Shown: positions 4,691-23,893, numbered from the stretch's first letter. The stretch is 64,000 bases of DNA from Myceligenerans salitolerans (GCF_017349295.1 NZ_JAFMPK010000009.1:1-64000); one strand, 5' to 3'. Notes: generated from the sequence alone by a model not told the origin. Numbers and translations: made by a program.

Positions 4691-4806
4691 CGAGGATATC
4701 GGATCTGTGGTGGCGCCGTCGGCGCCGCAGGTCTGAGCCCGTCGGCGCCGCCCCTGCCGGGTGTCCGTAGTGTGACCCGTGCGTGTCAGGTGCCGGACAG
4801 CGCGAC

Positions 4807-4812
4807 TATCGT
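4807..4812 (+). promoter_or_regulatory. ilvD -10 element, leaderless promoter
   Basis: TATCGT ends seven bases before the A of the ATG at 4819, placing transcription start exactly on that codon. This argues against an upstream in-frame GTG at 4783, which would put the promoter inside the gene. Confidence 0.55.
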
Positions 4813-4818
4813 GACCGC

Positions 4819-7563: not shown

Positions 7564-8386
7564 CGGCCTCGCCGGCAGGGCGAGCGAGTTGGTGCGTCCC
7601 TACCGCGCCGTGCTCGCGTCGCGGGTCCGCGCGCAGCGCGCGTACCGGGCGAGCTTCCGGGCGGACCTGTTCGGCACCGCGGTCGTCGGGCTGACGGAGC
7701 TGGCCGAGGTGGTCGTGCTCTTCTCGGCCGCGAACGGGACCCTGGGCGGACTCGACCTCATGCAGGCGCTCCTCGTCTTCGGGCTCGCCGAGCTGGCGTT
7801 CTCGAACGCCGACATGCTGTTCGGGCACGTCGACAGCCTCGCGCGGCAGGTACGGTCCGGGACCGTCGACATCCTGTACCTGCGGCCCCAGCCGTTGCTC
7901 GCCCAGCTCGTCACCAGCGACATCAGCCTACGGCGCGTCGGACGCTCCGCGCTGGCCGTCGTCGTCCTCGTCGTCGCGCTCGTCGTGAACGACGTCGACT
8001 GGGGACCGCGGGCCGTAGCGCTGCTGGCGATGTCACTGGTGTGCGGGTTCGCGATCTTCTGCGCCAACTTCGTCACGGCGGGCGGGCTGCAGTTCTTCCT
8101 GCTCAACGCGCAGGAGGTGACCAACGCGTTCGTGTACGGCGGGCGACACGCGTCCACCCAGCCCGCCACCGTGTGGGTGCGCAGCATCACGGTGATCTTC
8201 GGGTTCGTGTTCCCCATGGCGTTCTGTGCCTACCTGCCGGCGATGCTGCTGCTCGGCGAGCCCGGCGCGGAATGGCTGCCCGCCTGGCTCGGGTGGTACG
8301 CGCCGGCCGCCGCGGCGTGGGCATGGACGGTCGCGCTGCTCGCGTGGCGGGCCGGAGTACGGCACTACCAGGGAGGCGGAGGATGA
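7556..8386 (+). CDS. ABC-2 type exporter permease, second subunit
   Basis: The 276-residue second permease has six predicted spans and the family's basic N-terminus (RPYRAVLASRVRAQRAYR). It starts with GTG inside the end of the first permease and ends in an ATGA overlap with the ATPase gene, so the three proteins are translationally coupled. This trio (two DUF990-like permeases plus NatA-like ATPase) is a recurrent actinobacterial exporter arrangement with no firmly known substrate. Confidence 0.8.
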   Translation: MGDGLAGRASELVRPYRAVLASRVRAQRAYRASFRADLFGTAVVGLTELAEVVVLFSAANGTLGGLDLMQALLVFGLAELAFSNADMLFGHVDSLARQVRSGTVDILYLRPQPLLAQLVTSDISLRRVGRSALAVVVLVVALVVNDVDWGPRAVALLAMSLVCGFAIFCANFVTAGGLQFFLLNAQEVTNAFVYGGRHASTQPATVWVRSITVIFGFVFPMAFCAYLPAMLLLGEPGAEWLPAWLGWYAPAAAAWAWTVALLAWRAGVRHYQGGGG

Positions 8387-9360
8387 GCGGGACGACGTCG
8401 GACACGATCGTGGAGGTGCGCGGCCTGAGCCGCGACTTCCGGGTGCGCGACGGGCTGAAGGTCCGGCGGCTGACCGCCGTCGACCGGATGACCTGGAGCA
8501 TCGCCGCGGGCGAGGCGGTCGGGTACATCGGCGCCAACGGCGCCGGGAAGTCCACCACGATCAAGATGCTCGCCGGCATCCTCGTGCCGACCGCCGGCGA
8601 CGTGCATACCTGCGGGCTGAGACCGGTCAAGGACCGCAAGAAGCTCGCGCGACGGATCGGGGTCGTGTTCGGGCAGCGGTCGCAGCTGTGGTGGGACCTG
8701 CCCGTGCGGGAGTCCTTCGGCATCCTCGCCGCGATCCACTCGCTGTCCCGCGCCCGGGAACGGGCCCGCACCGACGAACTCGTCGAGACCCTCGACATGG
8801 GCGACTACCTCGGCACGCCCGTGCGGCAGCTGTCGCTCGGGCAACGGATGCGCGCCGAGGTCGCGGCCGCGCTGCTGCACCGGCCGCAGCTGCTGATCCT
8901 CGACGAGCCGACCATCGGGCTCGACGTGCTCTCCAAGCAGCGGCTGCGCGAGTTCCTGGTCCGCGAGCGGGCGGAGCACGGCACCACCCTGCTCCTCACC
9001 ACGCACGACATGGGCGACGTCGAGCGGCTGTGCGACCGCGTCCTCGTGGTGGACCACGGACGGCTCGCCTACGACGGGAGCCTCGACGGGCTCGGCCGGA
9101 CAGTCGGGGCGGAGCGCGTGCTGGTCGTGGACCTCGCCGAACCGTGCGCCGAGCTCGCCGTGCCCGGCGCGCGGCACCTGCGCAGCGAGGGCGGCGGCCT
9201 GCGGCAGCACCTCGCGTTCGACCCGGCCGCGACGACGGCCGCCCGCGTGCTCGCCGCCGTCTCCGAACAGGCCGACGTCCTGGACCTGACGATCGCCGAG
9301 CCCGCCGTCGAGGACGTGGTGCGCCGGATCTACGAACGCGCCACCACCAGCTCCTCGTAA
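8383..9360 (+). CDS. ABC exporter ATP-binding protein
   Basis: A 325-residue ATPase powering the two preceding permeases. All catalytic motifs are intact: Walker A GANGAGKSTT (about residues 51-60), Q-loop region VFGQRSQLWWDLPV, signature LSLGQRMR (about 150), Walker B LLILDEPTIGLD and H-loop LLTTHD. The C-terminal 80 residues form the regulatory extension usual in drug and antibiotic exporters. Its 3' end overlaps the converging P450 gene by 31 bp. It contrasts sharply with the degenerate ATPase at 19.8 kb. Confidence 0.9.
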   Translation: MSGTTSDTIVEVRGLSRDFRVRDGLKVRRLTAVDRMTWSIAAGEAVGYIGANGAGKSTTIKMLAGILVPTAGDVHTCGLRPVKDRKKLARRIGVVFGQRSQLWWDLPVRESFGILAAIHSLSRARERARTDELVETLDMGDYLGTPVRQLSLGQRMRAEVAAALLHRPQLLILDEPTIGLDVLSKQRLREFLVRERAEHGTTLLLTTHDMGDVERLCDRVLVVDHGRLAYDGSLDGLGRTVGAERVLVVDLAEPCAELAVPGARHLRSEGGGLRQHLAFDPAATTAARVLAAVSEQADVLDLTIAEPAVEDVVRRIYERATTSSS

Positions 9361-10649
9361 CCCGGCACGATCACCCGCCGGGCGGCGCGGCGCCGGACCA
9401 CGCGGAGCGGGACGGCGCCGTCCGCGGGCCACAGCACGCGCAGCAGCGCGGAGATCTCCGCACGCGCGAGCGCCGCGCCGAGACAGAGATGGCGGCCCGC
9501 TCCGAACCAGAGCTGGCGGGTCTCCCGGACGTACTCCCGGTCCGCGCGGAACGGTCCCGCGGCCGCGTTCGCCGACCAGACCAGCAGCATGATCCGGTCA
9601 CCCGCGCGCAGGCGGGCACCGCCGATCTCGACGTCGCGGGAGACGCCGCGTCCGATGACCGACGCAGGGCTCGTCACCCGTAGCCCTTCGCGGACCACCG
9701 GCTCCCAGGGGTCCGTGCCCGGTGGAGTCGTGGCGGACGACGAGGTGTCCGCACCGGCGGGTCCGGTGCCGGCCGCACCGGCAGCCAGTGCGGCGAGCAG
9801 GCGGTGCTGTTCGCCGGTGTCGACCAGGAGCGCCGTCGTGCGCATCATGGCGCTCGCGGACGTCTCCGTCCCGGCGACCATGAGCAGGCCCGCCAGGCCG
9901 GTGGTCTCCTCGAGGCCCAGCCCGAGCTCACGGGCACGGCCCAGGAGGCGCGTCGGGGGTGCGGTACGGAAGGCCTCGGGCACGCCCGCGGTCAGCTCGT
10001 CGGTGATGAGCTTCGCCTCGGCGATCGCGGTGGGGGACAGCGTGGTGGACGTGGCGGTGCCCAGGGCGAGCTTCGCGAGCCGCTCGCCGGTGCGGAAGGC
10101 GGCGAGCGCCCCGTTGTCGTCGGGCCACGCGGGGGCGGTGCCGGGGCTGGTGTCGGCGTCGGGGCCGGGGCCGGCGGGCGCCGGGATGCCGAGGAGCTCG
10201 ATCATCATGCGGCCGACGAGCACGCGTGCGGTGTGGGCGATGTCGACGGGCTCGCCGGCGGACAGCCGCGTGCCGACGTCGCTCAGGACCGGTCCCCAGG
10301 CCTCCGCCACGAGTTCGGCGGCAGATCTCTCGGTGAACAGGTCGCGGGCGCGCGTGCGCAGGTCGTGGTGGCCCGGACCGTCGAACAGGTCGCGCACCCA
10401 CTCGCCGAGGATCTGTGCCCAGAGGTCGCCGACGCCGCCCTCGCCCACCATCGTGAAGGATCGGTGGTCCTTGAGGACCTCGCGCGCGACGACGGGGTCA
10501 CCGGTCACCCAGCCGATACCGGGGACACTGCGGATCGCGGGCCCTGGCAGACGTGCGAGGCCTTGTCCGGCGAGGAGGAGTCCGGCCATCGCGGGGCGCG
10601 CTCGCCAGAGCAGCCCGAGCTCGTGCCGGGTGGTGGGCAGCGGAGTCAT
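9330..10649 (-). CDS. Cytochrome P450 (first of two paralogues)
   Basis: A 439-residue soluble bacterial P450. Visible landmarks are the I-helix oxygen-activation motif MVAGTETSAS, the K-helix ExxR in EGLRVTSP and the heme-thiolate loop FGAGRHLCLG near residue 393. Two Pro/Gly/Ser-rich inserts (about residues 171-190 and 290-308) are unusual for the fold. It is divergent from the OleA-like gene across 71 bp and related to the P450 at 12750, sharing the patterns VxDLW-x-x-IL and RRxxVPxYxELV. It probably hydroxylates or desaturates the island's product. The redox partner is not in the window. Confidence 0.88.
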   Translation of the reverse strand: MTPLPTTRHELGLLWRARPAMAGLLLAGQGLARLPGPAIRSVPGIGWVTGDPVVAREVLKDHRSFTMVGEGGVGDLWAQILGEWVRDLFDGPGHHDLRTRARDLFTERSAAELVAEAWGPVLSDVGTRLSAGEPVDIAHTARVLVGRMMIELLGIPAPAGPGPDADTSPGTAPAWPDDNGALAAFRTGERLAKLALGTATSTTLSPTAIAEAKLITDELTAGVPEAFRTAPPTRLLGRARELGLGLEETTGLAGLLMVAGTETSASAMMRTTALLVDTGEQHRLLAALAAGAAGTGPAGADTSSSATTPPGTDPWEPVVREGLRVTSPASVIGRGVSRDVEIGGARLRAGDRIMLLVWSANAAAGPFRADREYVRETRQLWFGAGRHLCLGAALARAEISALLRVLWPADGAVPLRVVRRRAARRVIVPGYEELVVARS

Positions 10650-10720
10650 GGGGAGAGTGTGCCGTGCCGTGCGGCGGACTTGTGTCGGAGGTGTCGGCCA
10701 GGGTCGCTACCGTGTGCCAG

Positions 10721-11941
10721 GTGTCGATAGAAACCACGGCCGCCGTCGAACCTCCGACCGCGGTCGAGCCATCGGCCGCCGTCGTACCGGGGCCGACGCC
10801 TCCTGTCGCCTGGATCGCGGGGGTCGCCGTCCATCTACCTGCGGAGACGCGGGACGTCGCTGCGGTCGAGCGGGAGCTGCACCGACGGAACCCGAAAGTG
10901 GTGCCGCGGATCCCCATGGTCTCCCGGCTGACAGGTGCGCGGCGGGTCCATGTCGCGGAGGACGACGAGCAGGCGTCCGATCTCGCGGTGGCGGCCGCTC
11001 GGAAGGTGCTCGCCGGAGCCGGGCTGGCGCCGTCGGACGTCGACCTGCTGATCTTCGCGTCGGCGTCGCAGGACATGGTCGAACCTGCCACCGCGCACAT
11101 CACCGCCGCGAAGCTGGGCGCGTCGTGCCCGGTGATGGACGTGAAGAACGCCTGCAACTCGGTGCTGAACGGGATCGAGGTGGCCGAGGCGCTGATCGGT
11201 ACGGGTCGCTACCAGCGGGTGCTGATCGCCTGTGGTGAGATGCCGAGCCGCGCCGTGCGGCGGGACGTGCCGGACCGGGCGACGTACGCGTTGTCGGCGC
11301 CGGGGTACACGATGTCCGACGCCGGTGCGGCGGTGCTCGTCGAGGCGGCGCGCGGCGCTGGTGGGCCGGAGACGCCGGGCTTGCAGGGAGTGGGCTTGCA
11401 GGGGACGGGGCTGGACGGGGCCGCTTTGGACACGGCGGGCTTGGGCGGGGCCGCCCTCGACGCGGAGCTCGCCGGCCTGGCGGGGGCGATGCCGTCGGGC
11501 ATCCTGGCGTCGGCGTTCACGGCGGCGTCCCGGCACTGGGACGTCGGGATGCTGCCGGGTGGTGGCACGTTCAACCCGCGTGATCCCGAACGCAGCTACT
11601 TCGAGATCGACGGGTCTCGGCTGCGGGAGGCGTTCGACGAACTCGGACCCGAGGTGGTCGTCGAGGCGATGTCGAAGGCAGGTGTGACGTGGGAGGAGAT
11701 CGGATTCGTCGCGGTGCACCAGGTGGCCGTGGCCTATCTGGACGACGTGTTCGCAAGCCTGGGAGTGCCCCGGGAGCGCGCGATCGTGACGATCGGCGAC
11801 CACGGGAACGTGGCCTCGGCGAGCCTGCCGCTGCAGCTCAGCCTGGCGGAGCAGACGGGGCGGCTCCGGCGTGGGGACGTGGCCCTGCTGGTCGGCCTCG
11901 CCGGCGGGATCAGCATGGGGGCGATGGTGGTGCGGTGGTGA
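10721..11941 (+). CDS. OleA-like thiolase / 3-oxoacyl-ACP synthase III family enzyme
   Basis: A 406-residue ketosynthase-III-fold protein. The catalytic triad is readable: Cys145 in KNACNS, His333 in AVHQVA and Asn363 in DHGNVA. DMVEPATA (Glu121) matches the (L/V)EP(A/S)TA motif whose Glu is the base in OleA, which condenses two acyl-CoAs head to head. GTG 10721 is preferred because TACCGT ends seven bases before it. The first 28 residues are Pro/Ala/Val-rich, and residues about 220-249 are a pentapeptide-like insert absent from normal KAS III. It overlaps the glycosyltransferase as GTGA. OleC- and OleD-like genes follow in the island, supporting the OleA reading over fatty-acid FabH. Confidence 0.78.
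   Translation: MSIETTAAVEPPTAVEPSAAVVPGPTPPVAWIAGVAVHLPAETRDVAAVERELHRRNPKVVPRIPMVSRLTGARRVHVAEDDEQASDLAVAAARKVLAGAGLAPSDVDLLIFASASQDMVEPATAHITAAKLGASCPVMDVKNACNSVLNGIEVAEALIGTGRYQRVLIACGEMPSRAVRRDVPDRATYALSAPGYTMSDAGAAVLVEAARGAGGPETPGLQGVGLQGTGLDGAALDTAGLGGAALDAELAGLAGAMPSGILASAFTAASRHWDVGMLPGGGTFNPRDPERSYFEIDGSRLREAFDELGPEVVVEAMSKAGVTWEEIGFVAVHQVAVAYLDDVFASLGVPRERAIVTIGDHGNVASASLPLQLSLAEQTGRLRRGDVALLVGLAGGISMGAMVVRW
11378..11467 (+). repeat. Six 15-bp units inside the OleA-like gene
   Basis: Six degenerate in-frame units encode GLQGV, GLQGT, GLDGA, ALDTA, GLGGA and ALDAE. Leucine recurs every fifth residue, as in pentapeptide-repeat solenoids, but the block is short. It lies between the strand containing DAGAAVLVEAA and the ASAFTAASRHWD helix. 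Confidence 0.75.
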
Positions 11942-12753
11942 GCGGGGGTCCGCGGCGGGATGGTGACGCGGGCGGGCAAGGTGACGCCGGGGTGCGGCTG
12001 GCCGTCGTCGTCCCGGCGTTGAACGAGGCGCACGAGCACGGGATCGCGCGCACGCTCGAGGCACTGCACGCGCAGGAGGACGACGACTTCGACCTGGTCG
12101 TGGTGGACAACGGTTCCACGGACGGGACCGCGGAACTGGTGCACGCGACGATCGCCCGGCTCGGGCGCGGACGGCGGTGGCAGGTGGTGCACGAGCCCCA
12201 GAAGGGGACGGGGGCCGCCGCCGACACGGGCATGCGGGTCGCGATCGCCCGCGGGGCGCAGCTTCTGGCCCGCACCGACGCCGACTGCCTGCCACCCCCG
12301 GGATGGACGCGAGCCGTCCGGGACGCGTTCCGCACGGGGGACGAGCTGATCGCGGGTCGGCTCGTCCCGCGGACGGACGACCGTCCCGTGTCGCGCGTGC
12401 AGCAGTCGGTGCTGGCGGGCGTCGTATGGCTGGCCGGCACGTTCGGCAAGGTGCGCCCCGGGAACCGTGGTGAGGGATACCTGGGCCCCTACGTGATGGC
12501 TCCGGGCTGCAACATGGCGATCACGGCGAACCTGTACGAGCGGGCGGGTGGGTTCCCGCGCACCAGGATCGAGGACGTGCACGAGGACCGGGCGCTGGTC
12601 AACGCGGTGCGCCGGCTGACGACCGCCTACGGGGAGCATCGCGGGGTGTGGGTACGCGCTTCCACCCGGCGGGTCCACGCGTGGGGTGTGGTGCGGACAC
12701 TGGGCTGGTACGCGGACCATCGGTACCGGCCCGAGATGGTGGACATCCGGTGA
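11938..12753 (+). CDS. Family 2 glycosyltransferase
   Basis: A 271-residue GT-A fold enzyme that would move a sugar from a nucleotide sugar to an unknown acceptor. It opens with VRLAVVVPALNEA, then DLVVVDNGSTDGT. The metal-binding DxD is RTDADC near residue 116 and the acceptor-loop region is EDVHEDRALV. There is no transmembrane segment. Its GTG start overlaps the OleA-like stop and its stop overlaps the following P450 start, both as GTGA, so it belongs to the same operon. A glycosyltransferase is not a standard part of ole clusters, so a glycosylated lipid product is plausible. Confidence 0.82.
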   Translation: MSGGPRRDGDAGGQGDAGVRLAVVVPALNEAHEHGIARTLEALHAQEDDDFDLVVVDNGSTDGTAELVHATIARLGRGRRWQVVHEPQKGTGAAADTGMRVAIARGAQLLARTDADCLPPPGWTRAVRDAFRTGDELIAGRLVPRTDDRPVSRVQQSVLAGVVWLAGTFGKVRPGNRGEGYLGPYVMAPGCNMAITANLYERAGGFPRTRIEDVHEDRALVNAVRRLTTAYGEHRGVWVRASTRRVHAWGVVRTLGWYADHRYRPEMVDIR

Positions 12754-14039
12754 CGGGCGGGGGCCGTGGCGCGGGGAGTTCGATGGTGGCACGTCCGTCG
12801 GAGGTTCGCCCGGCCGAGGCCCGATGGGAGGAACGCGTCCAGCGCGCCGCACATCCCGTCGCCTATCCCGCGGTGAGGGCGCTTCGGCATCGGCCGGTGG
12901 TGCGGATCCCCCGGGTCGGGCTGGTGGTGAACGACGCCACGCTCGCGCGAGAGGTGCTCCTCGACGTCGACCGCTACTCGAAGGTGGGCCCGGGAGCTCC
13001 GTCGGACCTGTGGACACCGATCCTCGGGCCGTCCGTGCTGCTGAACATGGAGGGTGCGGAACACGCCGCGATGCGCCGGGCGCTCGGCCCGATCTTCTCG
13101 CCACGCGCGGTGCGGGAGCTGGTCAGAGCGCCAGGGCAGGAGCAGGACTCGCGGGAGTCGGGTGCTACGGGACCGCTCGCCGGGATGGTGGCACGCCTCG
13201 GTGCGGGTGAGACCGTGGACCTCGCGCGTGTGGTCGCCGACCAGGCCGGAGCGGTGATCTGCGGGCTCGTGGGCCTCCCGCCCACCGATACGGCGGTACG
13301 GGAGTCGATGGCCGCGGCGCGGGCGGTGACGGGGATGGTCCGGCTGCATCGGCGTCGGCTCACGACGACACAGGTGGCGTACGCCCGGCGGGTGCTGGGC
13401 GAGCTGACGGCGTCCGCGCGCGACGCATACCGCCGGGGCGACGAGTCGACCGTTCCCGGGCGGATGCGCGGACTCGGGCTGTCGGAGCGCGAGGCGATGG
13501 GTGCGGTCGGGGCGTTCGTGCTGACGGGCACCGAGACGATCCAGTCGTTCGTGCCGAGGCTGCTCGCGATCGCGCACGACACCGGATGGATGGACCGGCT
13601 CCTGGGTTCGGCAGGAGACGGAGATCTGCGCCGCCGCGTCGTCGAGGAGGCGCTGCGGGTGACGGTCCCCACCCCGGCGATGCTGCGGTCGGTGCGCACC
13701 GCCGCCGTTCTGGGCGGTGAGCCGGTGCGCGACGGCGACCGGATCGTGATCGCGACGGTGAACTGCTGTCGTGCCGCTGGCGGCTTCGATCCGGAACGAC
13801 CCGTCGACCCCGACGTGCGGCACCTGTGGTTCGGGGCGGGGCCGCACTTCTGCCTCGGGATGCCGCTGGCCATGGCGCAGGTTGAGGCGGTGCTCGACGC
13901 CCTCGCGTCGCTGGCTGCGCACGGTCGGCAACTCGTGGTGGGACGACGACGGCCCGCGCGTGGGGTGCTCGTACCGGCGTACCAGGAACTCGTGCTCGCC
14001 GCACCGACGCCAGACCGGAGCCGGAGGGCCGGGACGTGA
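12750..14039 (+). CDS. Cytochrome P450 (second of two paralogues)
   Basis: A 429-residue P450 with I-helix VLTGTETIQS, K-helix EEALRVTVPTPAMLRS and heme loop FGAGPHFCLGMPLA. GTG 12750 overlaps the glycosyltransferase stop as GTGA and is preferred for that reason; ATG 12783, 11 codons later, is the alternative. The sequence aligns over its whole length with the P450 at 9330-10649 but lacks the Pro/Gly-rich inserts of that one. It is the last coupled gene before the antisense HNH gene interrupts the operon. Confidence 0.88.
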   Translation: MTGGGRGAGSSMVARPSEVRPAEARWEERVQRAAHPVAYPAVRALRHRPVVRIPRVGLVVNDATLAREVLLDVDRYSKVGPGAPSDLWTPILGPSVLLNMEGAEHAAMRRALGPIFSPRAVRELVRAPGQEQDSRESGATGPLAGMVARLGAGETVDLARVVADQAGAVICGLVGLPPTDTAVRESMAAARAVTGMVRLHRRRLTTTQVAYARRVLGELTASARDAYRRGDESTVPGRMRGLGLSEREAMGAVGAFVLTGTETIQSFVPRLLAIAHDTGWMDRLLGSAGDGDLRRRVVEEALRVTVPTPAMLRSVRTAAVLGGEPVRDGDRIVIATVNCCRAAGGFDPERPVDPDVRHLWFGAGPHFCLGMPLAMAQVEAVLDALASLAAHGRQLVVGRRRPARGVLVPAYQELVLAAPTPDRSRRAGT

Positions 14040-14095
14040 CGAGCGCCCGGAGGGCGGGCTGCCGATGAACGGGGCCCGTCGGGCGGGGCGAGTGC

Positions 14096-16312
14096 TCAGA
14101 ACGGCGGCGCTCCCGGATGGCGTCCACGGGGCTGATCGGCCTCCTCGTCTCCGGGTGCAGCGCTTGCCGTGGCGGGTGGTGTCGCGAGTGTCATGCCGTG
14201 AGCGAGCGCGTACCGGATGGTGGGATCGGTAATGGTGGGCTCGACGACGGCGGGCACGCCGCTGGGTGGGGACCAGTGTGTGATCCCGGTGTCCGCATCC
14301 CGGCTGACCGACCAGTCCGCATGCGTTTTCAGGTTGTGGTGTCTGCGGCATAGAGCATGAAGGTTCGTCGCGCGTGTCTGGCCTGGCTCGCTCGGCGCGT
14401 AGTCGTGATCGTGGTCGAACGCGTCGATGTGATCCAGGTCCAGGACCGTGCGGCCCGCGGCCAGAGCCGGCCGGTCACAGCCCGGGAACCGGCAGGTGCG
14501 GTCACGGGCGCCCACGGCGGCTCGTAGCGTGGCTCCGGGGGCGTAGGTGCGGGTGGAGTAGTCGGTGAGAACACCGGTGACCGGGTCGGTCAGGAGCCGC
14601 CGCCACGTGCTGTCGGCGGCGATGCGCGCAGCCGTGTCGGCCGGGATGGGGCCGATGCCCTCCAGGATGCCGGGAGTGATGTCCCCGGGGTCCAGGAGCA
14701 TGGTGGCGGGCACGGTCACGTTCACGACGGTGGTCACGTCCACCACGCGGATCCGTGTGCCGAGTGCCGCCGTATCGCCGCCTGTATTCGGGCGTCCGAT
14801 GTACTGGTTTCCTATGCTCTGTTCTCCCACGTTCTGGCTTCCAGTATTCCGGCTGCTCGTCCTGTCGGTGCTGCCCTGTGCGGAGCCGGTGAGCGTGCTG
14901 CCGTGCGGGTCGTGCGACCGGTCGTGCGGGACGGGGATCAGGTCGGTGTCCAGCACGGGCTCGACCAGTCGTGGCGGCTCGACGACCTCGCCGTCACGAC
15001 CACCGTTGTCACCATGGTTGCGACCACCTTTGTCGTGGTCGGCGTCGCGGTTGTCAGCGGCGTCATCGCAGCCGTTGTGCGACTCGTTGATGGTGCCGTC
15101 GAGGTTGTCGTCCGTCTCGTCGGCGGGACACGGCAGGACGAGGCGACCGGTGACCAGCGCGGCCAGTGCTGCGGCACGGAGGGTGCCCAGAGGGCGCGCC
15201 TCCCCGGGGACATCCTTGAGTGCCTTGGCGGCGGCCTGGACGGTGTTGAACGTACGAGCCGCGTCCACCACGGGCATGTCGGCGACGATGCGCCCCATGC
15301 CGGGACCCGCCGGCTCGGCCCACACGTTGCACCGCTCCACGACGTCCCGCTGACGCGCTCTCCTGCCGTGCAGCACCGCGGCACGTGCGTTCAGCTGCTC
15401 ACTGACCCAGCGCCACGTGCGGGTGCGGGCGCTCGGCAGCAGATCCTCGATGGCCTCGCCACGTTCCTGAGGCGTCAGGTCGGTGCCAGCACGCAGGAAC
15501 GTGTCGACCTTCTTCGCATCGATGTGTCCGGCGGCCAGTGCTTCGGCAAGCCGCGGGTAGCGGGACGTACCCTCACCCCGCATCGCGATCTGCCATCCCT
15601 CACCGGAAGTCACGTGCAGTCCGGCGGCGATCTCGCCAGCGGCCGAGTCTCGTCCCAACGGGCCGTCCGTGCGGGTCATCAACTCCGCCGCAACCCGCGC
15701 CTGAGCGGCACGCACCCAGGAGGCGACCCGCTCCCAGCCTGCGATCACGCGTCGCAGGTCGCCATCATCCAGGCTCGCCGGTGCACGCTCGCCGGTGTCG
15801 GTCACGTGCGTCACGCCGCCCGACCCGTCGCCGGTGCCGAACCGCGTCTCCAGGCCGGTCAGGTTCTGCAACGTGCTGACCAGCGCCACACCCGGGGGCA
15901 GGTGGTCCACGTCCTCGAGCAGCAGCCCCGTGACGTCCACAACCACGACCCCGCCGCACGCACCCGAAACGCCCCGGCTCGTGCCGCCATCAGCGCGCCT
16001 CACGCCACCATGCGGACCGGCAGGTCCGGGGCCGATGTTCTCCTCCTCCTGGTGGATGTACGGGTTCGTCGCCAGAATCGCGGCGAGCTCCTGCTCGCTG
16101 TGGTCCGGCGGCAACAGCAGTTTCCCGAACGCGTCCACCAGTCCCGCGTCGTCCGAGGAGCAACCATCCGGCCCCCGGCCATCGAGTGCTGGCGCGAACT
16201 CTGCGGCGGACCGGTACCCGACCTCGCCGGTGGGACCGACCCACTCCACCTCGCCACGTCGCACGTCGATCTCGGGAGCGCGACTCGCGTCGTCGAAGGT
16301 TGAACCGGTCAT
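14096..16312 (-). CDS. DUF222 / HNH endonuclease domain protein (13E12 repeat family)
   Basis: A 738-residue protein with an N-terminal DUF222-like helical region (about residues 130-350) and a C-terminal HNH domain. The HNH part is CRFPGCDRPALAAG, then LDLDHIDAFDHD and NLHALCRRHHNLKTH, with the conserved Cys and His residues present. The middle (about residues 390-510) is Asp/Asn/Gly-rich and holds five-residue repeats. Such genes are multi-copy in many actinobacteria and behave as mobile or selfish genes; their nuclease role is mostly inferred. It lies antisense between the second P450 and the OleC-like gene, and is longer and less GC-biased than its neighbours. Confidence 0.88.
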   Translation of the reverse strand: MTGSTFDDASRAPEIDVRRGEVEWVGPTGEVGYRSAAEFAPALDGRGPDGCSSDDAGLVDAFGKLLLPPDHSEQELAAILATNPYIHQEEENIGPGPAGPHGGVRRADGGTSRGVSGACGGVVVVDVTGLLLEDVDHLPPGVALVSTLQNLTGLETRFGTGDGSGGVTHVTDTGERAPASLDDGDLRRVIAGWERVASWVRAAQARVAAELMTRTDGPLGRDSAAGEIAAGLHVTSGEGWQIAMRGEGTSRYPRLAEALAAGHIDAKKVDTFLRAGTDLTPQERGEAIEDLLPSARTRTWRWVSEQLNARAAVLHGRRARQRDVVERCNVWAEPAGPGMGRIVADMPVVDAARTFNTVQAAAKALKDVPGEARPLGTLRAAALAALVTGRLVLPCPADETDDNLDGTINESHNGCDDAADNRDADHDKGGRNHGDNGGRDGEVVEPPRLVEPVLDTDLIPVPHDRSHDPHGSTLTGSAQGSTDRTSSRNTGSQNVGEQSIGNQYIGRPNTGGDTAALGTRIRVVDVTTVVNVTVPATMLLDPGDITPGILEGIGPIPADTAARIAADSTWRRLLTDPVTGVLTDYSTRTYAPGATLRAAVGARDRTCRFPGCDRPALAAGRTVLDLDHIDAFDHDHDYAPSEPGQTRATNLHALCRRHHNLKTHADWSVSRDADTGITHWSPPSGVPAVVEPTITDPTIRYALAHGMTLATPPATASAAPGDEEADQPRGRHPGAPPF
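14785..14859 (-). repeat. Five 15-bp units inside the HNH gene
   Basis: On the minus strand the block encodes the five-residue series NTGSQ, NVGEQ, SIGNQ, YIGRP and NTGGD. Gly recurs at each third position of the unit. It lies in the low-complexity linker between DUF222 and HNH. Confidence 0.6.
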
Positions 16313-16477
16313 CAGCCGCCGCCTCCGTCCCCTGCTGGTTCTTCGCTGTTGTGTTCGATCCTATGTGTGCCACACGGGTTTCGCCATCAGAAAGTGGGAT
16401 CTGTGGATAACTTGTCACATCGGCGATGAGAGTGTTCTGATGGAGCCGGCACAACGGCACGGCGAAGGAGACGTTAG

Positions 16478-16564
16478 ATGTACGCACCGACACGCGGCCG
16501 GCTCACGGAACGTCGGAGTCTGGGCCACGCACCGCCGATGCTCGGTTACGTTCGGGTCCCGTGA
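16478..16564 (+). CDS. Possible 28-residue ORF coupled to the OleC-like gene
   Basis: ATG 16478 follows a strong ribosome-binding sequence, GAAGGAG, by 7 bases. The frame runs 28 codons (MYAPTRGRLTERRS...) and its stop overlaps the GTG of the next gene as GTGA, the same junction type seen at the other joints of this island. Third-position GC is lower than in neighbouring genes. It could be a translational-coupling leader, the remnant of a gene cut by the HNH element, or chance. The product resembles nothing known to me. Confidence 0.35.
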   Translation: MYAPTRGRLTERRSLGHAPPMLGYVRVP

Positions 16565-18558
16565 GCACTGGAGAGACGTTCGTCGACGAACTGCTGACTT
16601 CGGTCGCCGAAGGGGGTATCGACCGTGGAGGTGTCGCGCTGCGCTGGTTCGGCGACGCCTATCCCGGAGCGCATGGCGCTCGTCGCGGATGCCGGGTCCG
16701 CGAGGAGGTCACGTTCGTGGAGCTGGCGCGCCGCGTCGAGGACACCGCCGCCGGCCTGCGCGCAGCCGGGATGCAGCCCGGTGAGCGCGTGCTGTTCAGC
16801 ATCCGGCCGCGCCCGGAAGGCATCATCCTCTGCCTCGCGGTGATCCACGCGGGCGGCTCGATCGTGTTCGTCGACCCGGGTTCGACGCCCGAGCTCTTCG
16901 AGGCTCGCCTCACGGCCGCCGATCCGCGCTGGGCGGCGACCGAGGCGCTGTTGTACGCGGTGTCCTCGGGTCCGCTCACCCGGGTGGCACGCGCGCGTGG
17001 ACTGCTCCTTCCGCACTACGCGCGGCTGCCGGTCCGGCATCTGTACTCGGGGGCGTGGCTTCCGGGAGTGCCGCGCGGAGCACGGCGTGCGGCACGGCTG
17101 GCCCTCGGGCAGGCGGACCGTCGTACATCGGCCGACGGCCCTGTGGCTGATGGTCCTGTGGCTGATGGTTCGGTGGCCGGTGGTTCGGTGGTCGGCCGAG
17201 AACCGAGCGGGGCGGGCGCGGGCCGGGAAGCTCTTGTCGTGTTCACATCGGGCACGACGTCGGATCCGCGGGCCGTCGTGCACACCACCTCCTCCCTTGG
17301 CGGCATGCTTGACCTGTTTGCCCAGGTGGGAGACCTGCGGGCCGGGCAGCGTGCGCATACCGACCAGATGTTCCTCGGTCTACCCGCGCTCCTGGCCGGC
17401 GGCACCTGGGAGATCCCGGCACGCACACCTGCTGCGGACCCAGGCGCGTTCGCCCGGGGGCTGGCGGGTGCGGACTCGTCATTCGCGGTGCCTGCGGACA
17501 TCACGGCCCTCCTCGACGTGATCGAGGAGGATCGCCGTCGCGGTGTGACTACGGCCCGCTCGTCCGGCCGTGCACGACGCCGATCTGGTCGTGCGAACCG
17601 TGCATCCATCGGTAGGGCTCGGACGCCGGTAGGGCCACGGGTGATGGCTGTCGGAGCCGCGCCGGTGACCCCTGCGCTGATGGAGCGTGCGACTCGTCTC
17701 CTGCCGGAGACACGCTGGGTCTGCGTGTACGGGGCCACGGAGATGCTTCCCGTCGCCGTCGCCGATGGTATCGACAAGGCGGCCTTCTCCGCCGCGGCCG
17801 CAACCGAACGTCTCCCGCCGTCCACCGCCTCGGCCGGTCTGTCTCCGCCTGCCGGTGACCTCATCGGCACCCCGCTCGACGGCGTCACGGCACGCATCGA
17901 CGCCCCGGATCACGACGGCGTCGGCGAGCTCGTGATCTCGGGTCCGTCCCTCATGGCCGGCTATCTCGCCGACCTCGATGCGGGCCGGCCCGCCGCGACG
18001 GAGCACCGAACCGGCGACCTGGCGCGGGTTGACGACGCCGGCCGACTCACTCTCGTCGGCCGTACCCGCGACATGATCATCCGGGGCACGGTGAACATCT
18101 ATCCGGGCCTGTTCGAGCCGCGCCTGCGGGCGTTGCCGGGCGTGGGCGACGCCCTGATGGTCGGCGTCCCGATGGACGACGGCGACGAGCGGGTGGTTCT
18201 CGTCGTCGTGGCAGATCGTGACCACCCGCGGGCCCGCGGCGCACGGCAGCAAGGCCGGCCATCTCCCGCGGCCGGCTCGCCCGTCGCCGGCTCGCCTGTC
18301 GCCGGCTCGGAGTCAGCCGGCGTGGCCCCTACCGGTGCAGCCTTCGGCGGTGCGGCCTCCGGCGGTGTGACACTCGCCGAGACCGCCCTCTCCCGAGCGG
18401 TCGAGTCCCGGTTACCCGGGATCCTGGACCACGGGGCCCTGCCCGACCTGGTCGTCGAGACGCCGTTCGTGCCGTTGGCGGGCCGGTCCCGTAAGCCGGA
18501 CCGGGGGGCTCTCGCCGCCGCGGCCGCGGCATTCGTACGACGGTCCGTACCGAGCTGA
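16561..18558 (+). CDS. OleC-like AMP-dependent ligase (beta-lactone synthetase type)
   Basis: A 665-residue member of the acyl-adenylating superfamily. The phosphate loop is VFTSGTTSDP (residues 227-236), the adenine motif YGATEMLPVA (390-399) resembles the YGATExLPV of OleC, and TGDLARVDDAGRL and GRTRDMII follow. The C-terminal lysine region is GRSRKPDRGAL. OleC enzymes use ATP to turn beta-hydroxy acids into beta-lactones. Two low-complexity inserts made of 15-bp repeats (residues about 191-210 and 571-605) account for its length over the usual 550 or so. GTG 16561 may be leaderless (TACGTT at 16547) or coupled to the small ORF before it. Confidence 0.75.
   Translation: MSTGETFVDELLTSVAEGGIDRGGVALRWFGDAYPGAHGARRGCRVREEVTFVELARRVEDTAAGLRAAGMQPGERVLFSIRPRPEGIILCLAVIHAGGSIVFVDPGSTPELFEARLTAADPRWAATEALLYAVSSGPLTRVARARGLLLPHYARLPVRHLYSGAWLPGVPRGARRAARLALGQADRRTSADGPVADGPVADGSVAGGSVVGREPSGAGAGREALVVFTSGTTSDPRAVVHTTSSLGGMLDLFAQVGDLRAGQRAHTDQMFLGLPALLAGGTWEIPARTPAADPGAFARGLAGADSSFAVPADITALLDVIEEDRRRGVTTARSSGRARRRSGRANRASIGRARTPVGPRVMAVGAAPVTPALMERATRLLPETRWVCVYGATEMLPVAVADGIDKAAFSAAAATERLPPSTASAGLSPPAGDLIGTPLDGVTARIDAPDHDGVGELVISGPSLMAGYLADLDAGRPAATEHRTGDLARVDDAGRLTLVGRTRDMIIRGTVNIYPGLFEPRLRALPGVGDALMVGVPMDDGDERVVLVVVADRDHPRARGARQQGRPSPAAGSPVAGSPVAGSESAGVAPTGAAFGGAASGGVTLAETALSRAVESRLPGILDHGALPDLVVETPFVPLAGRSRKPDRGALAAAAAAFVRRSVPS
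17131..17190 (+). repeat. Four 15-bp units in the OleC-like gene, first block
   Basis: Four in-frame units encode ADGPV, ADGPV, ADGSV and AGGSV. They lie just before the phosphate-binding loop, in a region that is a surface loop in this superfamily. Confidence 0.75.
18271..18375 (+). repeat. Seven degenerate 15-bp units in the OleC-like gene, second block
   Basis: Units encode AGSPV, AGSPV, AGSES, AGVAP, TGAAF, GGAAS and GGVTL. The first two differ by one base and later units are more diverged. The block interrupts the small C-terminal domain before the catalytic lysine region. Confidence 0.65.
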
Positions 18559-18568
18559 AGGACGAAGC

Positions 18569-18604
18569 CCGTACGTCTGGGAGGGTCCGTACGTCTGGGA
18601 AGGC
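18569..18604. repeat. Two 18-bp tandem units between oleC-like and oleD-like genes
   Basis: CCGTACGTCTGGGAGGGT is followed by a near-identical copy and then a partial third copy beginning CCGTAC. The core contains the palindrome CGTACG. It fills part of the 128-bp spacer upstream of the reductase. Confidence 0.65.
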
Positions 18605-18686
18605 CCGTACACATTCGACCGGTACGGTTCGGTCTGTCCCGGGAACGTGGCCGAGGGACGTGCGGCCGGAGAAGGTGAGGGAGCGC

Positions 18687-19676
18687 ATGCGTGTGGCGGT
18701 GACCGGGGCGTCCGGCTTCGTCGGCGGCGCCGTCGTGAAGGAACTCGCGGCACACGGGCACGACGTGCTCGCCAGTTCACGCCGCATGCCCGCCGACCTC
18801 CCTGAAGGAGTTCGCCATCTCGCCTGGGACCTGCGCGACGGCCCCCTCGAAGGGAATGCGCACCCGGGCGATGTCGATGCCGTCGTGCACTGCGCCGCCG
18901 TCGTCGGCGACGGTGGCTCGCGAGCCGCGGCGTGGGTGGTGAACGTGGAGGGCACGCGCGCCGTGCGCACGACCTTCGGCAAGGCGCGATTCGTGCACGT
19001 GTCGTCCGGCAGCGTGTACGACCCGACGACGCCGAGCGTCCGCATCCGTGAGGACGAGGGGCCGACGGCGGACCGGGGACGACGGCCCTTCCGCTACCTC
19101 AACGCGTACGGTGCCACGAAAGCGGCCGCCGAACACTGGCTCGCACTCGACGCGGCCGAGCCCGACCGCGGTCCCGTCGTCGTCCTGCGTCCGCACGCCG
19201 TGTACGGGCCGGGAGACACGACCCTGCTCCCGCGCCTCGAAGGAGCGCTGATCGGGGGCCGGTGGCTGCCCCTGCCCGGCGGCGGCACGACGCTGCACCA
19301 TCTCACGCACGTCGCTACGCTGGCCGCGTCCGTCCGGGCGGCCCTGACGGCGGACCTGTCGCGCGAGATCGCGGGCGGTCTGCCACTGGTCGTGAACGTC
19401 GCCGACGCCGCACCGGTGGTGCTGCGCGAGATCCTCGAACTGCTGATGCTCGCGCGTGGCAGGCACGTGCGCGTGGTTGCCGTGCCCGAGCAGGCGGCCC
19501 TCCGCGCCGCGGTGGTCGCCGAACGGGCCGCGGCACTGACGGGCACGGAGCCCCGGGTGTCCCGCTACGCGCTGAGCCACCTCGCGATGGAGCGCACGTA
19601 CGACCTCACCGTGCTGCGCGATCGGCTCGGCGTCGATCCGCCAGCCACCTCGATCCTGGGCGCCGGATTCTGGTGA
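18687..19676 (+). CDS. OleD-like NAD(P)-dependent reductase (extended SDR)
   Basis: A 329-residue extended short-chain dehydrogenase. The nucleotide-binding GASGFVGG is at residues 7-14 and the catalytic YGATK at 141-145, with a VSSGSVYDP strand before it. The later PGGGTTLHHLTHV pattern is typical of OleD/3-beta-HSD relatives. OleD reduces the 2-alkyl-3-oxo acid made by OleA to the 3-hydroxy acid used by OleC. ATG 18687 has GGTGAGGGAG upstream; the GTG nine codons earlier has no such site. It follows the OleC-like gene on the same strand. Confidence 0.75.
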   Translation: MRVAVTGASGFVGGAVVKELAAHGHDVLASSRRMPADLPEGVRHLAWDLRDGPLEGNAHPGDVDAVVHCAAVVGDGGSRAAAWVVNVEGTRAVRTTFGKARFVHVSSGSVYDPTTPSVRIREDEGPTADRGRRPFRYLNAYGATKAAAEHWLALDAAEPDRGPVVVLRPHAVYGPGDTTLLPRLEGALIGGRWLPLPGGGTTLHHLTHVATLAASVRAALTADLSREIAGGLPLVVNVADAAPVVLREILELLMLARGRHVRVVAVPEQAALRAAVVAERAAALTGTEPRVSRYALSHLAMERTYDLTVLRDRLGVDPPATSILGAGFW

Positions 19677-19682
19677 CCGGCT

Positions 19683-19772
19683 CGGACCGTCGACCATCGG
19701 ACCGCCGACCACCGGACCGCCGACCACCGGACCGCCGACCATCGGACCGCCGACCACCGGACCGCCGACCAT
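19683..19772. repeat. Six 15-bp tandem units after the oleD-like gene
   Basis: Six nearly perfect units of CGGACCGCCGACCAC, with C/T changes at one or two sites, plus a partial seventh, fill the spacer between the reductase and the ABC ATPase. Nothing in it looks coding. Low unit divergence suggests recent expansion. Confidence 0.85.
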
Positions 19773-19847
19773 CGGACCGGATCCATCGGCCGGCAACGGT
19801 GACCGACGGACCACCGAGGCCTATCCGGAATGCCCTACCCTGTCCGG

Positions 19848-21029
19848 GTGAGCCCGGACGATCGCCCGCCCTCTGTCGCGGCCGCCGTCGAGACCCTGGG
19901 CCTGCGGAAGACCTACTCCGGCGTCCGCGGCCGGACGATCGCCGTCGACCGCCTCGACCTTCTCGTACCCGCCCGCGGCGTGCACGTGCTGCTCGGTCCC
20001 GCCAAGGCCGGGAAGTCGACCGTCCTGCGCCTTCTCCTCGGGCTCGCCCGTGCGGACGGCGGAGCGGCACGGTTGCTGGGCGTGGCGGTGCCCGACGTCG
20101 GGCGTGAGCTCGCCGGGCGCGTCGGCGCCGTCGTCGGCGAACCGGGGTTCCTCGACCGGCTGACCGGCCGGCGCAACCTGCTGATGCACCCGGCGGCCAC
20201 CAGCGCGGAACAGGTCGACCTCGCGCTCCGGCGGACCGGCCTCGCGGACGCCGCCCTCGACGCCGTGGGTACCTATCCGCCGGGTGACCGCCGCCGGCTC
20301 GCCTTCGCCGCTGCGCTTCTTGCCGGCCCCGACCTCCTGATCGCCGACGACCCGACCCGTGGACTGGACTCCACGGGAGCGCGCCAGGTGCGCACCCTCG
20401 TGCGCAAGATCGCCGATCGCGGCATCGGCGTTCTCCTGACGACCGACGACCTCGTCGAGGCCCAGCAACTCGCCGACACCGTCACCGTCCTGGCCGGCGG
20501 ACGCGTGGTCGGCGACGGACCCGCGACCGACGTGATCGGCGACCTCGCCACGACCGTACGGCTGCGTGTGGACGACGGCGACCGCGCCGTCGCCGAGCTG
20601 CGCGCCGCCAAGTTCCGGGCCGACCGCGACGGGGACGCGATCCTCGTCGACGGCGTCGAGGAACCCGCCGACGTGACCAGGGCGCTCGCCCGGAAGAAGC
20701 TGTACGTCACGGAGATGAGCACGCGGCGGGAGTCGCTGGACTCGCTCGTGCGACGGCTCGCGCCGGAACCGGAGCCCGCAGAGCAGCCTTCGCCGCGTCG
20801 GCAACGGCGCGCGGCGTTCGAGGCGAAGGTGGCCGAGAAGCAAGCCGCGTACGACGCCCGGGCCGCAGCACGCGAAAAGGCTGCAGCCGCCAAGGAGGCC
20901 GCACGACAGGACAGAGCCGAGACGGCCCTGCTCGGCCGACGACGGGCAGCCGAGACGGCCGGAGGATCGGGCGTGACCCCCACACGGGACGGCCGCACGA
21001 AGAACGGCACGACCGAGGAGTCCGCGTAG
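19848..21029 (+). CDS. ABC transporter ATP-binding protein with degenerate catalytic motifs
   Basis: A 393-residue ABC-type ATPase. Walker A GPAKAGKST (residues 50-58) is intact. The LSGGQ signature reads YPPGD (143-147), the Walker B glutamate is Asp168 (LLIADDPT), and the H-loop histidine is Asp200 (LLTTDD). The C-terminal 80 residues or so are Ala/Arg/Lys/Glu-rich and probably coiled coil. GTG 19848 is preferred because TACCCT ends seven bases earlier; ATG 19830 is the alternative. It abuts the permease gene. It may bind ATP without efficient hydrolysis, or pair with an intact subunit. Confidence 0.85.
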   Translation: MSPDDRPPSVAAAVETLGLRKTYSGVRGRTIAVDRLDLLVPARGVHVLLGPAKAGKSTVLRLLLGLARADGGAARLLGVAVPDVGRELAGRVGAVVGEPGFLDRLTGRRNLLMHPAATSAEQVDLALRRTGLADAALDAVGTYPPGDRRRLAFAAALLAGPDLLIADDPTRGLDSTGARQVRTLVRKIADRGIGVLLTTDDLVEAQQLADTVTVLAGGRVVGDGPATDVIGDLATTVRLRVDDGDRAVAELRAAKFRADRDGDAILVDGVEEPADVTRALARKKLYVTEMSTRRESLDSLVRRLAPEPEPAEQPSPRRQRRAAFEAKVAEKQAAYDARAAAREKAAAAKEAARQDRAETALLGRRRAAETAGGSGVTPTRDGRTKNGTTEESA

Positions 21030-21794
21030 ATGCGTCTGCTGGCCAAGGAACTGCGGCGGTTCGCACTCCGCCCGGTCGCACGGTGGGTGGCGGCGGGCAC
21101 GTTCGTGTACGTCGTCACGGTGGTCCTCCTGGCCGCGTTCACCGGCGACGGTCGCCCCCTCTCCCGGACCGTCGCCGACGGCGATCTCGCCGGGTACGCC
21201 CTCGTCCCGGTGCTTCTCGCGTGTGTGGCCGGGGCTCTCCTGGCCACCGGGCCGAACGGGGGAACCCGCGCACTCCTCACCGTCGAGCCCCGCCGGGACC
21301 GTGTGTACTGGATACGGGCGGCAGCGGCCGTAGCCGCGGTGCTCCCCGCCGTCGCGGTCGCCTACCTGCTCATCGCGGCCGGTCTGTGGGGCGTCACCGT
21401 CGTCGCCGGCCCGCCGGACGACCCGGGAACGACGGCGGACGAAGCCGGGCTGCTCCGCCAGCTCGCCTGGTCCGGCGCACGGGTCCTGGCGCTCGCGGTG
21501 TGCGCGGCGGTCGCCGGGTCCGCCGTCGGCGCGGCCGTCGGGCGCTGGTGGGCGGCGGTGCCGTTGGTCGTCCTGGTACCGGTCGGCGTCGAGGCCGTCC
21601 TGGCCGCGCTGGACGCCGAACCCTGGTCGCCGCTCGCGCATGCCCGGGCCTGGGCCGCGGGGCCGACGGGAGCTGACGCCGGAGCGGGTGGGCCGGTGGG
21701 GTCCTGGTGGGCGAGCGGCCTGCTCCTGCTCACCGCCGCGGCGGTGGTGACGATGCTCGGCATGCTCACGTTCCGGCGCCGGGAGCTTCGCTGA
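21030..21794 (+). CDS. ABC transporter permease
   Basis: A 254-residue membrane protein with about six hydrophobic spans (near residues 20-40, 58-75, 92-112, 145-165, 170-190 and 225-245) and a short basic N-terminus (LLAKELRRFALRP). Its ATG directly follows the ATPase stop. It resembles ABC-2 type permeases only in layout; no diagnostic motif was recognised. It closes the island. The next gene unit is ilvB, after a new promoter. Confidence 0.7.
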   Translation: MRLLAKELRRFALRPVARWVAAGTFVYVVTVVLLAAFTGDGRPLSRTVADGDLAGYALVPVLLACVAGALLATGPNGGTRALLTVEPRRDRVYWIRAAAAVAAVLPAVAVAYLLIAAGLWGVTVVAGPPDDPGTTADEAGLLRQLAWSGARVLALAVCAAVAGSAVGAAVGRWWAAVPLVVLVPVGVEAVLAALDAEPWSPLAHARAWAAGPTGADAGAGGPVGSWWASGLLLLTAAAVVTMLGMLTFRRRELR

Positions 21795-21957: not shown

Positions 21958-21999
21958 CCCCTCGCCTGTCGTCCACGGACGACCGAGGGGTTTCTTGTT
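21958..21999 (+). terminator. ilvB attenuator terminator
   Basis: CCCCTCG-CCT-GTCGTCC and GGACGAC-C-GAGGGG form a long stem (21958-21990), followed by TTTCTTGTT. Upstream, GAGCGCGC (21913-21920, overlapping the end of the leader peptide) can pair with GCGCGCTC (21949-21956) as a pause hairpin. This gives the classical attenuation layout. Confidence 0.8.
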
Positions 22000-22051
22000 G
22001 TCCGAAACATCCGCAGCCACCCCTCCGGGGGCGCGACGGCAGGAGACCGAC

Positions 22052-23893
22052 ATGACCGCCACACCGACACCGGCCCAGCTCGCGGCGCGCGCCGAGGCGC
22101 GTGAGCAGGTACGCGCGGACCTTCGCGCCAAGGCTGTCACCGCCGAGGAGGTGACCGGGGCGGAGTCGCTCGTCCGGTCCCTCGAGGAGGTCGGTGCGGA
22201 CACGGTCTTCGGGATCCCGGGCGGAGCCATCCTTCCGGCCTACGACCCGCTCATGGACAGCAAGCGGCTACGACACGTCCTCGTGCGGCACGAGCAGGGC
22301 GGCGGGCACGCGGCGTCGGGCTACGCCCACGCGACGGGCAAGGTCGGGGTGACGATGGCGACGTCGGGCCCGGGCGCGACGAACCTCGTGACGCCGCTGG
22401 CCGACGCCCACATGGACTCGATCCCGATGGTCGCGATCACCGGACAGGTGGCAGCGGGCGCGATCGGGACCGACGCGTTCCAGGAGGCGGACATCGTGGG
22501 CATCACGATGCCCATCACCAAGCACTCCTTCCTCGTCACGGACCCGGCCGAGATCCCGCGGACGATCGCCGAGGCGTTCCACATCGCGTCGACCGGCCGG
22601 CCCGGCCCGGTGCTGGTCGACATCGCCAAGTCCGCGATGCAGATGAACACCACGTTCTCCTGGCCGCAGGACCTCGCTCTGCCCGGCTACCACCCCGTGA
22701 CGAAACCGCACGCGAAGCAGATCCGTGAGGCGGCGAAGCTGCTGGCCACGGCCCGGCGGCCGGTGCTGTACGTGGGTGGCGGGGTGGTCCGGGCGGGGGC
22801 CTCGGAGCTGCTCCGCAAGCTGGTGGACCTGTCCGGCGCACCTGTGGTGACCACGCTCATGGCCCGCGGTGCCGTGCCCGACTCCCATCCGCAGAACCTC
22901 GGCATGCCGGGTATGCACGGCACGGTCCCGGCGGTCGCGGCACTGCAGAAGGCCGACCTGATCTTCGCGCTCGGTGCCCGGTTCGACGACCGCGTCACGG
23001 GCAAGCTGTCCTCGTTCGCGCCGCGTGCGGCCATCATCCACGCCGACATCGACCCCGCGGAGATCGGCAAGAACCGGGCGGTCGACGTGCCGATCGTGGG
23101 GGACCTGCGCGAGGTGATCGGCGACCTGCTGCCGGAGCTCGCCAAGGAGCACGAGGCGGTCGGCAGGCCGGACCTCGAGGGCTGGTGGCGGCAGGTCGAC
23201 GGCTGGCGCGAGACCTACCCGCTCGGATTCACGGAGACGGCCGACGGGCACCTCGCCCCGCAGCACGTCATCCAGCGGCTCGGCGAGCTGGCCGGGCCCG
23301 ACGCGATCTACGCGGGCGGCGTGGGCCAGCACCAGATGTGGGCGGCGCAGTTCATCAGGTACGAGAAGCCGCGCACCTGGATCAACTCCGGCGGTCTGGG
23401 CACCATGGGTTACTCCGTCCCGGCCGCGATGGGCGCGAAGGTGGGCCAGCCTGACGCCGAGGTGTGGGCCATCGACGGCGACGGCTGCTTCCAGATGACC
23501 AACCAGGAACTCGCGACCTGCACGATCAACGACATCCCGATCAAGGTGGCGGTCATCAACAACTCGTCGCTCGGCATGGTGCGGCAGTGGCAGACGCTCT
23601 TCTACAACGAGCGCTACTCCAACACCGACCTGCACACCGGCCACGGCACCGCCCGCGTGCCCGACTTCGTCAAGCTGGCGGAGGCCTACGGCTGCGAGGG
23701 GATCCGCGTGGAGAGCCCGTCCGAGGTGGACACGGCGATCAAGCGGGCCCGGGAGATCGACGACCGGCCCGTGGTCGTGGACTTCACCGTCTCGCGTGAC
23801 GCGATGGTGTGGCCCATGGTCGCCGCCGGCGTGAGCAACGACGACATCCAGTACGCGCGCGGTATCTCGCCGTCGTGGGAACGCGAAGACTGA
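22052..23893 (+). CDS. ilvB: Acetolactate synthase large subunit
   Basis: This ThDP- and FAD-dependent enzyme makes acetolactate or aceto-hydroxybutyrate, the first common step to valine, leucine and isoleucine. The 613-residue product shows the ThDP-site Glu in [14 protein letters not shown] and the metal-binding [19 protein letters not shown] 22052 is preceded by AGGAG at 22041-22045; TTG codons at 21995 lie in the terminator tail and are rejected. The regulatory subunit ilvN follows after 22 bp. Expression is probably set by the attenuator upstream. Confidence 0.97.

Follow-up and report, generated by a model that had tools for sequence, protein, structure and literature searches.

The ole-type gene set and its enzymes

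The window analysed here, 64 kb from the start of contig C1 in the Myceligenerans salitolerans genome (4.58 Mb in 49 contigs), carries at bases 9330-21794 a cluster that encodes OleA-, OleC- and OleD-type enzymes together with two cytochrome P450s and a family 2 glycosyltransferase (GT2), and that contains no OleB. An earlier note made from the sequence had named these genes. All of them were found at this site with Pfam support, with the correction that a DUF222/HNH gene lies between the P450b gene and oleC.

The P450a gene (9330..10649, minus strand; Pfam p450) is divergent from oleA. The OleA-type thiolase gene (10691..11941, plus strand; Pfam KAS III domains, ACP_syn_III/_C) has an uncertain start at GTG 10691, 10712 or 10721, and is followed on the same strand by the GT2 gene (11938..12753; Pfam Glycos_transf_2) and the P450b gene (12750..14039; Pfam p450), the latter starting at GTG 12750 or ATG 12783. 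The GTGA overlaps said to join these three genes were both found to be real when read from the sequence: the oleA stop TGA occupies 11939-11941 and the GT2 start GTG 11938-11940, and the GT2 stop TGA occupies 12751-12753 with the P450b GTG in frame at 12750. Further downstream, also on the plus strand, are the genes for an AMP-forming, β-lactone synthetase-like OleC-type ligase (16561..18558; Pfam AMP-binding) and an OleD-type NAD(P)H-dependent reductase (18687..19676; Pfam Epimerase; alternative start GTG 18660).

The thiolase is a member of an OleA-like sister clade outside the canonical OleA equivalog. Cys147, His335 and Asn365, the catalytic residues of the thiolase superfamily, were invariant in 81 of 81 family members; counted from base 10715 here, they are the C145, H333 and N363 that had rightly been reported in the numbering from GTG 10721. 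In Xanthomonas campestris OleA, Glu117 is the base supplied by the partner subunit. The position of this Glu117-Pro pair is occupied by E123-P124, within the motif EPATA, and was also invariant in all 81 proteins; the Glu-Pro pair is a distinguishing mark of OleA (PMC7064751). The AlphaFold2 model of the thiolase (predicted local distance difference test score, pLDDT, 84) matched X. campestris OleA best, with a Z score of 41.3 and a root-mean-square deviation of 2.3 over 326 residues. The X. campestris OleA entries scored between 41.3 and 40.5 and the top FabH-type entry from outside Xanthomonas 38.6, while 3fk5, which is titled FabH and comes from Xanthomonas oryzae, scored 39.6. A tree was built from the cluster family, 14 canonical OleA proteins of Micrococcales, X. 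campestris OleA and KAS III paralogs from the genus; in it the cluster family formed a single clade separate from canonical OleA.

Sequence searches (phmmer, NCBIfam) alone cannot tell this protein from FabH: the sequence-only phmmer search of the PDB placed a FabH first, and NCBIfam FabH-type models scored at least as high as the OleA-type one. On these results the thiolase could be a FabH-like KAS III enzyme that produces single-chain polyketide or fatty acyl starters; the genes would then not form an Ole-like set. This is unlikely, since the Glu-Pro pair is invariant at the OleA position, the predicted fold is nearer to OleA than to FabH enzymes and reversed the phmmer assignment, OleC and OleD are encoded next to the gene, and OleB is encoded beside the OleA of sister loci. 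A grouping with FabH, which the earlier note had named as a result that would refute its reading, was not obtained.

The ligase contains the YGATEMLPVA motif attributed to it, which includes YGATEMLP, and its P-loop, YGxTE motif, Asp, Arg and A10 Lys are all present. Y390, T393, E394, D486 and R501 were invariant in 76 of 76 proteins and the A10 residue Lys645 was found in 73 of 76. When compared with eight ligases of the same genome, the cluster ligase was placed as sister to canonical OleC with support of 87/89, so that the second refuting result named beforehand, a ligase outside the OleC clade, did not materialise either; the ligases of the cluster family form a clade of their own (support 100/100) apart from canonical OleC. 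In the reductase, numbered from GTG 18660, the TGxxGFxG motif and the Y150xxxK154 pair are present, and Y150 and K154 were conserved in 73 of 73 proteins.

Both P450s retain the I-helix GTET, the ExxR motif and the heme cysteine. In P450a (heme Cys389) these were invariant in 42 of 42 proteins, and the heme cysteine of P450b (Cys357) was conserved in 79 of 79. A weak TIGR04515 match had raised the candidate identity of P450a as a heme-less "P450-derived glycosyltransferase activator", which was rejected on the invariance of the heme cysteine, ExxR motif and acid-alcohol pair. Together P450a and P450b formed one clade against four other P450s of the genome, a comparison with few outgroups, and they look like old paralogs within the pathway. 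No P450 redox partner was seen among the matches listed for the cluster flanks. The GT2 protein has a GT-A fold, and its DxD motif (D114/D116) and its ED pair (E216/D217), of the kind typical of inverting GT2 enzymes, were invariant in 81 of 81 proteins. The closest solved folds to its model (pLDDT 89) were chondroitin polymerase and WrtF at Z 21; the fold search returned generic GT-A relatives only and indicated no sugar donor.

Distribution of the cluster and proposed exchange of its end modules

Among 84,980 species genomes scanned, 148 relatives were found, and genes were counted in the best 80 loci, several of which end at contig ends, lowering the counts. GT2 was present in 80, P450b in 78, OleC in 75 and OleD in 72 of these loci, and in 41 P450a was adjacent or close to the cluster. 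The earlier note had proposed a synteny search for the gene set, and the core order OleA-GT2-P450-OleC-OleD was found to recur, at 36-90% identity, in eight actinobacterial families: Promicromonosporaceae, Cellulomonadaceae, Jonesiaceae, Microbacteriaceae, Micrococcaceae, Intrasporangiaceae, Pseudonocardiaceae and Streptosporangiaceae. Because the same five-gene order recurs in eight families, the cluster is not a product of chance. No further gene common to all clades was seen among the matches listed. Within the family of the window, the thiolase gene was found in four of four genomes of the genus, 48 of 200 genomes of the family and 10 of 25 genera, and the neighbours were the same in nearly every family locus read. 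About three quarters of the family lack the set, and in this genus the DUF222 gene interrupts it, as might be expected of a degrading set or of genes that are neighbours by accident and share no function. That explanation is highly improbable and already contradicted by the order kept in eight families, the invariant active sites, the translational overlaps and a gene fusion.

In the trees, Micrococcaceae OleA clustered with Pseudonocardiaceae OleA, which suggests a transfer. Several single loci departed from the common pattern. In Promicromonospora kroppenstedtii (L062) the cluster appears broken, through decay or misassembly: oleC was unmatched, and P450b and oleD were present only as pieces, in mixed order. 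In Antribacter gilvus approximately 3.2 kb of extra sequence lies between oleA and GT2 (L058 11140-14389), and one locus (L224) has two GT2 copies, before and after oleC. A contig labelled Sphaerisporangium cinnabarinum ATCC 31213 (L067, QAPD01000007.1) carries a Cellulosimicrobium-like cluster and flanks, with ilvD 89% identical, and its label looks wrong.

The absence of OleB noted earlier was borne out. With the OleB part of an OleBC fusion protein as probe, which detected 14 of 14 canonical loci (42-59% identity apart from the probe itself) as a positive control, no OleB was found in the window or next to any of the 80 related cluster loci. The genome contained no OleB ortholog, only generic alpha/beta hydrolases with 28-31% identity and expect values no better than 1e-10. 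Canonical OleA, present in 115 of 297 genomes of the order, was also not found in this genome. Two genomes of the family (G011 and G023; loci L174-L177) carry both a canonical OleA-OleBC-OleD cluster and a P450/GT2 cluster, and the two kinds of cluster are therefore not redundant.

In a class-wide search the OleA clade was found in 33 of 395 genomes, and 32 loci, which are not phylogenetically independent, were read for their arrangement. Nine loci had the gene order of the window and nine the order OleA-GT2-OleC-P450-OleD described for Actinoplanes, OleD being unmatched in one of them. Two had OleA followed directly by an in-frame GT2-OleC fusion protein (L228:7740-10145, minus strand; L247 about 10150-12510, plus strand; genus g197, family f35), with no P450 heme signature within 19 kb. 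One had OleA and P450b without GT2, and four had OleA alone, for which a Pfam check of the neighbours showed no consistent context. The remaining seven (L211, L223, L225, L226, L243, L244 and L246) had OleA, OleC, OleD and a separate OleB, without GT2 or P450b, and those placed in the tree fell inside the same OleA clade. An oleB beside homologues was the third result that the earlier note had given as evidence against its reading; it never occurred in direct orthologs of the cluster but did occur in this nested subclade lacking GT2. OleB and GT2 were found together in none of the 32 loci, with 20 loci having GT2 without OleB and seven OleB without GT2 or P450b. Since the two never occurred together in the loci read, they look like exchangeable end modules, and the simplest reading of these gene contents is that OleB and GT2, with P450, are alternative end modules on a common OleA/OleC/OleD base.

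The alternation of P450b and OleB within the OleA clade would also be seen if the end product were a hydrocarbon and a P450 acted as decarboxylase in the place of OleB, as OleT does for fatty acids. This appears quite improbable. Both P450s retain the acid-alcohol pair that ordinary monooxygenases have in the I helix and that the CYP152 peroxygenases lack, and hydrocarbon synthesis has no place for a glycosyltransferase.

Proposed pathway and product

In the Ole families, OleA joins two acyl-CoAs to give a 2-alkyl-3-ketoacid, OleD reduces it, and OleC closes the β-lactone. By analogy with these families, the thiolase of the cluster would carry out a head-to-head condensation of two acyl-CoAs, yielding a 2-alkyl-3-ketoacid, the reductase would convert this to the 2-alkyl-3-hydroxyacid, and the ligase would adenylate the carboxyl group and close the β-lactone ring. 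As OleB is absent, the lactone would stay undecarboxylated and no alkene would be formed. P450b, with P450a where present, may hydroxylate or otherwise oxidise a chain, and GT2 may glycosylate a hydroxyl group; the functional place of these GT2 and P450 genes is filled by OleB in the sister clusters. On balance we favour, with modest confidence, a reading in which the operon encodes a truncated Ole pathway to a long-chain lipid that is oxidised by P450 and carries a sugar, a product that would probably be β-lactone based. The OleA fold, the placement of OleC beside canonical OleC, the alternation of OleB with GT2 in the OleA clade, the GT2-OleC fusions and a published prediction speak for this reading. 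It is further supported by six enzymes with invariant or near-invariant catalytic residues, encoded in one conserved set with translational overlaps, and by the clustering of OleA, OleC and OleD genes without oleB, which is the criterion of OleACD β-lactone clusters. The hydroxylated, possibly glycosylated β-lactone or long-chain lipid proposed in the earlier note is thus still the best current guess.

The note had not recognised the gene set as a described pathway. In contrast, the same set of domains had already been reported by Robinson et al. (2020, mBio; PMC7064751) in Actinoplanes atraurantiacus, as OleA, a glycosyltransferase, OleC, a P450 and OleD in a genome without oleB, and the product was predicted to be a hydroxylated, glycosylated β-lactone. 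In a search of the open-access literature for a characterised product, only this prediction was found. The two clusters, compared by description, have the same five protein types, no oleB and the same predicted product class; in Actinoplanes OleC is listed before a single P450, whereas the window has the order OleA-GT2-P450-OleC-OleD and a second P450. In the nine genomes with the order listed for Actinoplanes, GT2 and OleA were 47-51% and 46-50% identical, respectively, to members of the clade of the window. Relative to the Actinoplanes set the cluster is a variant: its genes are ordered differently, it has one P450 more, and it is distributed far more widely. With the canonical oleABCD and oleA-oleBC-oleD clusters of Xanthomonas and Micrococcales it shares OleA, OleC and OleD homologs, their catalytic residues and the OleA fold; it differs from them in lacking OleB, in having P450 and GT2, and in its OleA, which has approximately 25% identity to theirs and belongs to a different clade. 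The OleB-bearing sister clusters combine an OleA of the same clade and OleC/OleD with a separate OleB, without GT2 or P450b. Like the present cluster, the nocardiolactone (nlt) and lipstatin (lst) clusters are actinobacterial OleA/C/D-type sets without OleB. They have two thiolase genes, whose products form a heterodimer, and lipstatin additionally has a nonribosomal peptide synthetase and a formyltransferase. Compared by description, the present cluster is set apart from them by its single thiolase, GT2 and P450s.

Several results weigh against the proposed β-lactone pathway. The thiolase scored 139.6 bits against the curated OleA equivalog model NF006720, below its cut-off of 285 bits, and the ligase 79 bits against the 900 required by the olefin β-lactone synthetase model NF045786; it also matched NF006754 below cut-off. 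The top NCBIfam models for the reductase were both OleD models, the first at 104 bits with a cut-off of 580 and the second at 86 bits, also below its cut-off, and in the OleD tree, which has long branches, canonical OleD was nearer to other short-chain dehydrogenases/reductases than to the cluster OleD. The Actinoplanes OleA, which has the same gene context, was active on a p-nitrophenyl ester, but the protein that could be recovered condensed none of the acyl-CoAs tested (PMC7064751). Finally, the GT2-OleC fusions without a P450 suggest that GT2 can use an acceptor that no P450 has made.

This last point bears on the main rival reading, glycosylation without a free β-lactone. If GT2 placed its sugar on the β-hydroxyl made by OleD, ring closure would be blocked and OleC could not form a β-lactone from that molecule; the OleC-like ligase would instead activate the carboxyl group for an ester, for a macrolactone onto the sugar or a P450-made hydroxyl, or for another transfer. 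The presence of GT2 in 80 of 80 loci, its fusion to OleC in two genomes with no P450 nearby, which points to an acceptor hydroxyl that needs no P450, and the separate 100/100 clade of the cluster OleC are in its favour. We regard it as doubtful though possible, as the catalytic motifs of OleC are retained, the canonical OleC reaction is intramolecular and the arrangement without P450 is rare. A more speculative extension is that a swap of the end module gave rise to an ancient and widespread actinobacterial glycolipid pathway, in which OleC would no longer stop at a free β-lactone and would link the chain made by condensation to a sugar or to a hydroxyl introduced by P450, to form a previously unknown class of branched two-chain glycolipids.

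As inhibitors of enzymes, β-lactones are of interest to medicine, and the Ole enzymes are an entry point common to several of them. The kind of gene set was predicted before; new here are its synteny in eight families, the ilvD/ilvB site described below, the apparent exchange of OleB and GT2, and the GT2-OleC fusions. The operon belongs to soil actinobacteria, among them common genera that can be cultured (Arthrobacter, Cellulosimicrobium, Promicromonospora, Pseudonocardia and Saccharopolyspora), and with natural empty sites and OleB-bearing sister clusters the product of an Ole pathway in which P450 and glycosyltransferase replace OleB becomes testable.

Insertion site and neighbouring genes

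In the family of the window the cluster lies between ilvD, the left border of the conserved locus (4783..6681, plus strand, in the window) and the same neighbour throughout Promicromonosporaceae, Cellulomonadaceae and Jonesiaceae, and ilvB, the right border, for the acetolactate synthase large subunit (21995..23893, plus strand; NCBIfam NF005860 above cut-off). The island was found at the same place in the cluster-bearing genera of the family of the window. Among the loci read from relatives in this family without the cluster, five (L252, L253, L255, L256 and L262) have the second ilvD-like gene 0.3-0.5 kb from ilvB and represent empty sites. The shared site and the empty sites therefore support a single old insertion in this family followed by losses.

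The island ends with a DrrA-like ATP-binding cassette (ABC) transporter ATPase gene (19830..21029, plus strand; Pfam ABC_tran) and its putative partner permease gene (21030..21794, plus strand), which had no Pfam match. An exporter does adjoin the cluster, as had been proposed, but this pair was confined to the Promicromonospora/Cellulosimicrobium group and does not belong to the conserved pathway. Upstream of P450a, an ABC-2 transporter with two permeases and an ATPase (6769-9360) was conserved in the Promicromonospora group only and was reversed in one locus (L065). The exporters on either side were accordingly ruled out as core pathway parts, being lineage-specific.

The DUF222/HNH gene, of the 13E12-repeat type (14096..16312, minus strand; Pfam DUF222), is not part of the pathway. 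Orthologs with 54-65% identity were found at the same place in Myceligenerans indicum (L052) and Myceligenerans pegani (L064) only, the nearest named relatives at the ole-type locus, and in none of the other genera seen. At the upstream edge of the island, the ABC-2 ATPase gene runs into the 3' end of the P450a gene in a 31-base tail-to-tail overlap.

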